A stretch of DNA of 64,000 bases from Acanthochlamys bracteata (Eukaryota > Streptophyta > Magnoliopsida > Pandanales > Velloziaceae). Location of the stretch: NCBI GenBank assembly GCA_019914995.1, contig CM034143.1, forward strand, positions 870,501 to 934,500, in the 5' to 3' direction. The stretch's first letter is position 1, and each line of letters starts with the position of its first letter. The position numbers were made by a program, and so were the translations under genes. The notes beneath the pieces are model-generated. The model was not told where the DNA came from, did not search any database, and worked only from the letters and a program-made list of their open reading frames with translations. Below, one piece after another: positions 1,479 through 4,700 of the stretch.

Positions 1479-1703
1479 ATGGAGGAGAATGATGGAATGT
1501 TGAGTTTCAACCAAGAACAGGCATCAGAGCTGATTGCGAGAGAGCTAAGAACAAGTTTCAATTCCGGCAAGACGAAAGAGTACGAATGGCGAGTTGCACA
1601 ACTGCAAGGTCTTTTAGACATGATAGAGGAAGAAGAAGAAGAAATCACTGCGGCGTTGAACTCCGATTTGGCCAAACCACATATGGAATCTTATCTCCAT
1701 GAG
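1479..1703 (+). CDS. ALDH3H1: ALDH3 alternative first coding exon A
   Basis: ATG at 1479 opens 75 codons ending at a GT donor (CATGAG/GTAAAA), in the same phase 0 as exon B, so it can join exon 2 at 3918. Motifs shared with exon B include EWRV, DL.KP, MES and LHE. By hand about 35 of 62 aligned residues are identical. Exon A has ten extra N-terminal residues and a glutamate run. The spread of conserved residues without stops or frameshifts argues for a used exon, not a relic. Confidence 0.75.
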
Positions 1704-4700
1704 GTAAAAAATTCTACTACGTAAAAATTTTCATTTGATAGCATAAAAAATGTGAACGTTTCGTGTTCTTTTAAAGCGCACGACAGATGTTTGTTGTAAT
1801 CCCATAGCCAGTTTTATACGCCACAATTTTAAAAGTTTGGTTTTAGGATTTCTTTTATAAATTTGTGTTGTTCGTCTCGAGTAATATACTGAATGTTGGC
1901 ATGAAAAATTGTTTGCAGTTTAGGTTTCTGATTTGTTTTCGTTCATACACTGTCGTAACTTATAAGGAAATTTGGTACTAATTAAATCATGCTCCAAATA
2001 AAAAGGTAGTGTTGTTCATATCTATAAATTAGGCATATTTTCTTATTCCAACTTTTTTTTTTGGAAAAATTTTTTAAACGTTATCAGAAAATAATAATTT
2101 TTCAAATTTCTATAATAAAATACGTCGATATCAAACATTACGATAAACTTAAGTTTTCTAGTTGTGGTGACTTGGCCTGATACGCATGTATATGTTCATT
2201 CATTTGAAGTTTATATGTTGTGATAAGTTGAAACACACGTAAGTCTACTTGAATGCTTGTGAAATACCAGCGATGAATTATAGAGCGAGATGTATTGGAA
2301 CTCTTCTTGCCTTGGGAAGTATTACAGTATGAAGTGCATGAATAGAGACAGTTGGAAAGAACTGAAATTTTTTATTTTTAATCTCTCGTGCGAGTAACGG
2401 AGAGTTTACAGTAAAAACACGGCAGGCGCAGAGTATATATCTTTAACCCAAAAAGTTTAGTCTTTTTGGCGCCTTCCTTTCTTCCTCACACAAGCACCAC
2501 AATTATAAAAAACAACAAAACAAAAAGAAATCAAAATAAAGATCCCATCTTTTTCTTGTTCCCTTACTCTTTTATAAAAACAACCAACCAAGAAAAATCA
2601 AATCAAATCAAACCATTTCAATCCCTTCTTGTAATTCTTGTTCTTGGGTTATTCTTGTTTTCTATAGTGAAGGAGATGGACCGAGAGAAGGCAATAGATT
2701 TAGTGAGTGAGTTGAGAGAGGAATTCAGGACAGGGAAGACAGTGGAGTTTGAATGGAGAGTAGAACAGTTGAAGGGGATAGTGAAGATGGTGGAAGAAAA
2801 GGAACAAGATATCATGGATGCTTTGAGTTCTGATCTTAACAAGCCGCAGATGGAGTCTTTCCTTCACGAGGTCTAATAGTTAATCCCGTGTTGAATATTT
2901 ATCGAGTTTTGTTTGTTATTTGGTGATTTGATTCGAACTTGTTGACCTTTTTTGGGGTTCTTGAGTGGAGTTGAAAGAGTTAAAAATGATTGGAAAATGA
3001 TAGGATTTGAAGTGGATATTTTATGACGGATTTTGGTTCCATAGAAAAGTTGAGAGATTGATGAAAGAATTTTGGGATTATTTTGTTTTAGTTTCTTGCT
3101 AGAAGAGGTACTTCACTTTTTCTTATTATACAGTTTATAAGGTTGAGTTTTACTGCAGCTGTATACTTTATGGTGGATTTGGTATTCTGATAAACTCTTC
3201 TTGTAAAATTCGATGAATTGAGTTCAAATTTGATAAATTTAATAAGGCAGAATTGCAGATTTTTAGAATTCAGAGCTGAGAAGATATACGAAATGAATAG
3301 ATCACCGGACCACATCAGGTTTGCTTGTTTGGGTTGGAAGAGTACATAAGGCAACCTTAGCGTTGGCCCTTCACCATAGAATTGGGTTGTGTCAATATCA
3401 AAAGTGGAAATTCTGAATTGATTTAAGTGTTAATGGAAGAAGCTATCGGCGAAAAACTATGGTTTTGTAAACTTTACATTGCTTGCTTAAGATTATTGTA
3501 GTTCTTCTCATTTCAGTTCTTTTCAATGCATTTACATGCCATGCATTTTGTCAACAAGAAATATCAAGAAGCTTCACTTGTCATGCAGACGATTGTTGTC
3601 GGGTCTCTGTTAAATAGCCTATTAAGAGATAAGTGGTCAATATGTAATAGTAACAGTGTCAGTTGGTTTGAATTTAAGTGAAAATCTTTACATCAACAAG
3701 CATTTTCAATACAAAATTTAATAGCAAAGACCACTTTTGACGGCTACCTGATTCATATCGAGTAAAGTAGTTTCTCCATGGTTACAGTCAGTATAGATAA
3801 CAAACTGTCAAGTATGACAGCCACGGTTTTTGTTTTTTAGCCTTTTTGGGTCTTCCATTATTTTTTAGTGTAAATTTATTTGTATATACATATATAATAA
3901 TTTTAACATTAATGCAGATTTCATTAGCAAAGTCCTCATGCCAATTGACTCTCAAAAAACTGAAAGAATGGATGAAACCAGAAAAGGTAATATACACTAA
4001 ACATGTAACTTGAGGCAGATTTTTTGGGAATATGGAGCATGTAATATTGGCACCTATAATGTTTCCCATGCAGGTTTCAGCAGCACTCACAACATTTCCA
4101 TCATCTGCTAAAATAGTTTCAGAACCCCTTGGAGTCGTGCTGATTATTTCCGCATGGAACTACCCCTTTCGTATGTACTAGTCTCTCTTTATAATTACTT
4201 GTTGCTATACGTGTATGATAAGAGTTTCTTTCTATACTTGTTCTGTATCAGTGCTATCAATCGAACCCATTATTGGAGCTATTGCAGCAGGAAACGCTGT
4301 AGTCCTGAAGCCATCAGAGATTGCTCCAGCTACTTCATCCTTTTTTGCTAAAATTTTACCAAAATATGTGGATAACTCTTGTGTCAAAGTTGTTGAGGGC
4401 TCTGTTCCTGAAACAACGGCTCTTCTAGAGCAGAAGTGGGATAAGATATTCTACACAGGTGCGTGCAAAATTATCTATCCCTGATAATTTCTGTACGTTG
4501 GTTGTTATACTTGAATTTCTGCTTCTGGTAAGCTGCTGATCGAAATTTTAAAAAATGATCTGATAATTTTCCAGGCAACGGAAAAGTTGCAAGGGTTGTT
4601 ATGGCTGCAGCTTCAAAGCACTTAACACCAGTAGTCTTAGAGCTTGGCGGGAAATCTCCAGTCGTTGTTGATTCAGATGTTGACATAAAAGTAAATTAAC

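Follow-up and report, generated by a model that had tools for sequence, protein, structure and literature searches.

Among known systems, the closest match to the locus described here appears, by analogy, to be human PGM1. According to the available excerpts of its description, PGM1 has two promoters and a duplicated coding first exon (1-1 and 1-2) in front of shared exons 2-11 (PMC7101342). The exon-1 segments are 51% identical, the paralog PGM5 has a single exon 1, the order of exon duplication and gene duplication was left undecided, and both isoforms are conserved across vertebrates, with a crystal structure of each (PMC7101342). In plants, the alternative promoter use that an earlier reading of our locus had mentioned for Arabidopsis ALDH3H1 (At1g44170) is borne out by excerpts of a review, which describe a second promoter within the upstream intron and a transcript from it with a different first exon, termed cryptic (PMC7823795). 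On a broader scale, the available text of Chen et al. (2007) counts, among type I clusters, 3 of 137 in rice and 7 of 99 in Arabidopsis that combine an altered N-terminus with a putative alternative promoter (PMC2174465). The word beginnings “duplicat” and “homolog” have 0 occurrences in the text of that study, so homologous duplicated first exons apparently lie outside its scope, as far as these excerpts go (PMC2174465).

The window analyzed here is a 64,000-nucleotide stretch of the Acanthochlamys bracteata genome (C18:870501-934500), and the genome searched comprised 195.5 Mb in 557 contigs. A complete 10-exon ALDH3 gene lies at window positions 1479-5976, with two homologous coding first exons, 1a and 1b, separated by 972 nt (Table 1). 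The acceptor of exon 2 takes both first exons in frame. Joined to exons 2-10, 1a yields an open protein of 491 aa (isoform A) and 1b one of 481 aa (isoform B), with GT and AG present at all junctions of both models. The gene model therefore agrees with the earlier description of two homologous phase-0 first exons, of 75 and 65 codons and about 1 kb apart, over one exon 2. As predicted from sequence, this model fits the anatomy of type I alternative first exons, in which two first exons lead to a shared exon 2.

Table 1. Features of the ALDH3 gene in window coordinates.
Feature	Position	Strand	Basis
Exon 1a, ATG to GAG, 225 nt, 75 codons, donor GAG/GTAAAA, phase 0	1479..1703	+	gene model; selection tests; donor rank 5/36
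Exon 1b, ATG to GAG, 195 nt, 65 codons, donor GAG/GTCTAA, phase 0	2676..2870	+	gene model; selection tests; donor rank 31/36
Candidate promoter A: TATA-like box, 46 nt 5' of exon 1a ATG	1433..1439	+	consensus match only
Candidate promoter B: TATA-like box, 242 nt 5' of exon 1b ATG	2434..2440	+	consensus match only
Additional TATAWAW 5' of exon 1b	2504 and 2573	+	consensus match only
Two acceptor-like AG sites 5' of exon 1b (exon start 2668 or 2673)	2666..2672	+	matrix from 36 acceptors; candidate sites
Exon 2, acceptor common to 1a and 1b	3918..3986	+	gene model
Exon 3	4074..4170	+	gene model
Exon 4	4252..4458	+	gene model
Exon 5	4575..4690	+	gene model
Exon 6, encodes an 11-residue segment with the presumed catalytic cysteine	4801..4905	+	gene model; class 3 ALDH alignment; family knowledge
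Exon 7	5001..5173	+	gene model
Exon 8	5264..5354	+	gene model
Exon 9	5443..5592	+	gene model
Exon 10 with stop codon; hydrophobic C-terminal segment	5734..5976	+	gene model

In a protein search of the whole genome, 1a found 1b at E 7.9e-17, far beyond chance. The two exons are identical at 37 of 65 aligned residues (57%; 55-57% by BLAST), in line with the roughly 56% that had been counted by hand in the sequence-only reading. Their DNA is 63% identical, and across the 65 codons the differences number 21, 13, and 38 at codon positions 1, 2, and 3, the pattern of a conserved reading frame. Key residues had also been described as kept in both exons. We defined 14 invariant columns from six further ALDH3 N-termini, of which three are encoded in this genome and three belong to structure-database chains; 1a keeps 14 of 14 and 1b 13 of 14 (the exception is L to I), which bears out that description.

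Like PGM1, as far as the excerpts describe it, the window gene has two first exons of related sequence (57% identical here), a paralog with a single exon 1 (L010), and a duplication order that is likewise not fixed. On the other hand, it encodes another enzyme in another kingdom, and the ALDH3 case is known from the sequence of one genome alone. We take the gene to be of the ALDH3H1 type, after Arabidopsis nomenclature; it would share with the Arabidopsis gene its type and, as predicted here, an intron promoter with another first exon. The primary paper on that Arabidopsis promoter is reportedly Missihoun et al. 2012. In contrast to the window gene, whose two first exons are complete, coding, and homologous and bear signs of selection, the Arabidopsis gene is given a cryptic exon in the review excerpts, which make no mention of a homologous copy of coding exon 1. 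The likeness to the type I clusters, as the excerpts of Chen et al. present them, lies in mutually exclusive first exons that precede a common set of exons, some with an altered N-terminus and a putative alternative promoter (PMC2174465). In the literature searched, which covered few subscription papers, ALDH3H1 was nowhere described as having homologous duplicated first exons, and we found no plant alternative first exons tied to exon duplication and a promoter. The arrangement is ordinary in kind and possibly uncommon in plants.

Both isoforms matched the Pfam family Aldedh (E 8.7e-83 for isoform A and 9.6e-84 for isoform B); LuxC also passed the cut-off weakly (1.7e-5 and 1.4e-5 for the two isoforms). 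With isoform A as the only query, the best solved structure was 1ad3, a class 3 ALDH (E 4e-130), and the 11-residue segment of exon 6 aligned with NSGQTCVAPDY of that protein. The catalytic cysteine of ALDHs lies in a GQxC motif, and from established family knowledge we take the exon 6 cysteine to be the catalytic one. Residues 21-75 of exon 1a aligned with residues 8 to ~62 of 1ad3. Because this segment lies before the catalytic region, we infer that both isoforms should be active enzymes. The common C-terminus (window 5900-5973) has a hydrophobic segment of 20 residues, which presumably resembles the membrane tail of fatty aldehyde dehydrogenase. At E 0.001, Pfam identified no family in exon 1a alone, exon 1b alone, or ORF 91-660; across the whole window, Rfam at gathering scores and a tRNA scan returned nothing. 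Elsewhere in the window, positions 55607-56052 hold a 221-bp unit in two head-to-tail copies that are 100% identical, which is either very recent or an assembly effect.

The dN/dS comparison of the two exons that the sequence-only reading had proposed gave an omega well under 1. By pairwise codon likelihood, dN was 0.30, dS 3.1, and omega 0.097, and fixing omega at 1 was worse by 32.7 (2 x lnL), a result that describes the pair and does not by itself demonstrate constraint on each single exon. In a branch model with no equal-length constraint, forcing neutrality cost only 0.01 on 1a and 2.5 on 1b. With synonymous sites saturated, this model carries no information on the single branches, and a model of equal neutral lengths was used instead; equal neutral divergence is expected for two exons that were born in one duplication and lie 1 kb apart.

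Under the equal-neutral-length model, omega was 0.078 for 1a and 0.089 for 1b. With five sequences, neutrality cost 30.7 on 1a and 29.5 on 1b (2 x lnL). The corresponding costs were 33.3 and 32.1 when codon frequencies came from the 1a-1b pair alone, 26.8 and 26.3 with three sequences, and 17.2 and 15.9 when the neutral length was capped at 1.5. In a parametric bootstrap on a three-sequence star model, none of the 60 null data sets per exon reached the observed value, for 1a (32.0 observed; largest null value 5.8) or for 1b (26.7; 5.0). Of 2000 simulations of neutral drift per exon, run to 1 substitution per site, 1.9% left 1a and 2.6% left 1b free of stops. Under equal neutral divergence, neutrality is rejected for 1a and 1b separately, and neither resembles a decaying relic. 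Provided that their neutral rates were equal, both exons apparently encoded useful protein over the greater part of their history. With equal neutral lengths the pair has both marks of a duplicated first exon, homology and purifying selection on each copy; with the constraint lifted, neutrality is not rejected for either copy. Of the earlier proposal that exon 1 was duplicated long ago and both copies were retained as start points, the age and the maintenance of both exons are upheld by the saturated synonymous divergence and, under equal neutral length, by purifying selection, while the use of two starts is a prediction from these data.

A search of the genome with exon 4 identified at least four ALDH3 genes, and searches with 1a and with 1b returned the same five places, namely 1a, 1b, and a single first exon per gene in three further genes; these searches score the best candidates only, and the counts are lower bounds. 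The paralogs L010 (on C3), L011 (C1), and L012 (C3) have ten exons each and a single exon 1, which in all three ends at the same phase-0 donor position as 1a and 1b. The nearest is L010, with 306 of 415 residues identical (74%) over exons 2-10. L011 and L012 are 65% identical to each other, and identity between the two pairs (the window gene with L010 versus L011 with L012) is 48-51%. The model of L011 intron 2 needs a GC donor (AAG/GCTAGC, reverse-complement position 3048), where the other three genes have GT. No convincing second, degenerate first exon was found in L010, L011, L012, or a 9.9 kb upstream stretch (L013); the best tblastn matches beyond the known exons had E values of 0.59, 0.07, 0.13, and 0.63, respectively.

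Since synonymous sites between 1a and 1b are saturated, the exon duplication is, on sequence divergence, old. The window gene and L010 are saturated as well over exons 2-10 (dS 2.6). First-exon dN was 0.30 for 1a-1b, 0.48 for 1a-L010, and 0.42 for 1b-L010, values that point to an exon duplication somewhat after the gene split, though trees cannot order the two events. The three ways of grouping 1a and 1b with the first exon of L010 differed by <0.2 in lnL (AU 0.68, 0.48, and 0.42), and in a free tree search neither 1a nor 1b was placed with support, with bootstrap values of 25/100 and 42/100 at nearby nodes. It could be speculated that exon 1 was duplicated before the two ALDH3H-type genes of this genome split; the two-start layout would then be ancestral in flowering plants and lost by the C3 paralog, and the “cryptic” intron-1 exon of Arabidopsis ALDH3H1 would be a degenerate descendant of 1b. 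We regard this history as rather unlikely.

Window positions 88-663 hold what we take, from sequence resemblance, to be the end of a NAC-like transcription factor gene. One homolog of this stretch lies at C16:776807 (69%, one internal stop). Another, matched by residues 1-119 of the 186-residue query (E 2.2e-10, 44%), lies at C3:4004623-4004940, with the L010 first exon ~5.5 kb away. Its presence beside L010 suggests that the window and L010 loci descend from one duplicated segment, with the NAC-like homolog on C3 oriented differently relative to the ALDH gene than in the window. A long shared segment is disfavored by the gene at 7870-8726, none of whose 6 other matches lies on C3, and by ORF 42427-44196, which matches only itself.

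Each first exon had also been credited with its own possible promoter. The 300 nt before each ATG contain one TATATA, at 1433 for 1a and 2434 for 1b, compared with 0.05 and 0.03 expected in first-order resampled sequence. The same 300 nt contain no ATG, where 2.8 (1a) and 1.5 (1b) would be expected. These signals are at most suggestive of two promoters. The case is less good for 1a, as a TATA box 46 nt before the ATG would leave a very short leader. Donors were ranked with a matrix built from the 36 donors of the same four genes, leaving out the GC donor of L011. The 1b donor is weak by this measure; five donors rank lower, the exon 3 donor of the window gene and the L012 exon 1 donor among them. 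Somewhat weak donors are reported, in the available text, for type I alternative first exons (PMC2174465).

The sequence-only reading had itself raised an alternative, that one exon survives as the dead remnant of a second, tandem gene whose exons 2-10 were lost. Loss of those exons would leave the layout seen (exon 1, gap, exon 1, rest), a whole-gene tandem duplication may have been the origin of the pair, and the codon model run without the clock constraint is compatible with neutrality on one branch. However, once neutral lengths are held equal, neither exon is compatible with a dN/dS near 1, and both are without stops or frameshifts despite the saturated synonymous divergence. In addition, no remnant of exons 2-10 was found in the intervals 664-1478, 1704-2675, and 2871-3917, where the best tblastn match had an E of 1.3 and the best blastn match with the coding sequence 0.12. 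A match at E 4e-4 in this search was discarded as the query overlapping its own start (3900-3917); the next best was 0.21. We therefore consider a dead exon improbable. The divergence of the exons also bears on the idea that the assembly collapsed two full tandem genes into one: 37% of the aligned bases differ and synonymous sites are saturated, which would be far too much divergence for a collapse of two copies, and we give this explanation almost no credence.

Another possibility is that 1b serves, perhaps in addition to its role as a first exon, as an internal exon of transcripts that start at 1a. According to the available text of Chen et al., first exons that can also be internal (type II) outnumber type I in both rice and Arabidopsis (PMC2174465). 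At this locus, the AG before 2673 would join 1a in frame to the GAG-ATG of 1b and place two N-terminal segments in tandem (score 2.14), and the AG before 2668 would join out of frame and lead directly to TGA, damping expression (score 3.56); the 36 known acceptors of the four genes score from -3.6 to 8.6 (leave-one-out), a range that covers both candidates. Among the AG sites in 1705-3917, however, the two rank only 3rd (2668) and 8th (2673), with the sites before 3134 and 3502 outscoring both. We know of no parallel in ALDH3 for a doubled N-terminal segment, and we think there is little chance that 1b is used in this way.

We consider it likely that this is one ALDH3 gene with two mutually exclusive coding first exons derived from an old duplication of exon 1, each with its own promoter and both spliced to the one acceptor at 3918, and that the gain comes chiefly from separate control of expression. 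Such a gene probably makes two enzyme forms from two start points. Promoter A would give the transcript 1a-2-10 and promoter B, inside intron 1, the transcript 1b-2-10, with 1a or 1b, never both, spliced in phase 0. The predicted enzymes would be identical from residue 76 of isoform A and residue 66 of isoform B onward, catalytic residues included, and only the N-terminal stretch would differ, a difference that may be of secondary importance. The earlier suggestion that the isoforms differ in location finds no support here. Neither N-terminus shows a transit peptide or signal sequence by eye, and the N-terminal net charge over 30 residues is -4 in isoform A and -3 in isoform B. The hydrophobic C-terminal segment is common to both forms. 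On these grounds the two forms are more likely to differ in expression than in location.

To judge from the few type I clusters noted above, plants may have few coding first exons that were duplicated and then maintained by selection over long periods, or such exons may have received little study, and the ALDH3 pair would provide a plant counterpart to human PGM1. For work on this gene, knockouts or promoter fusions that target only exon 1a might fail to capture all of the gene output. The pair also makes it worth asking whether a duplicated first exon was the origin of the intron-1 promoter in Arabidopsis ALDH3H1, a promoter whose function is left open in the available text of the review (PMC7823795).
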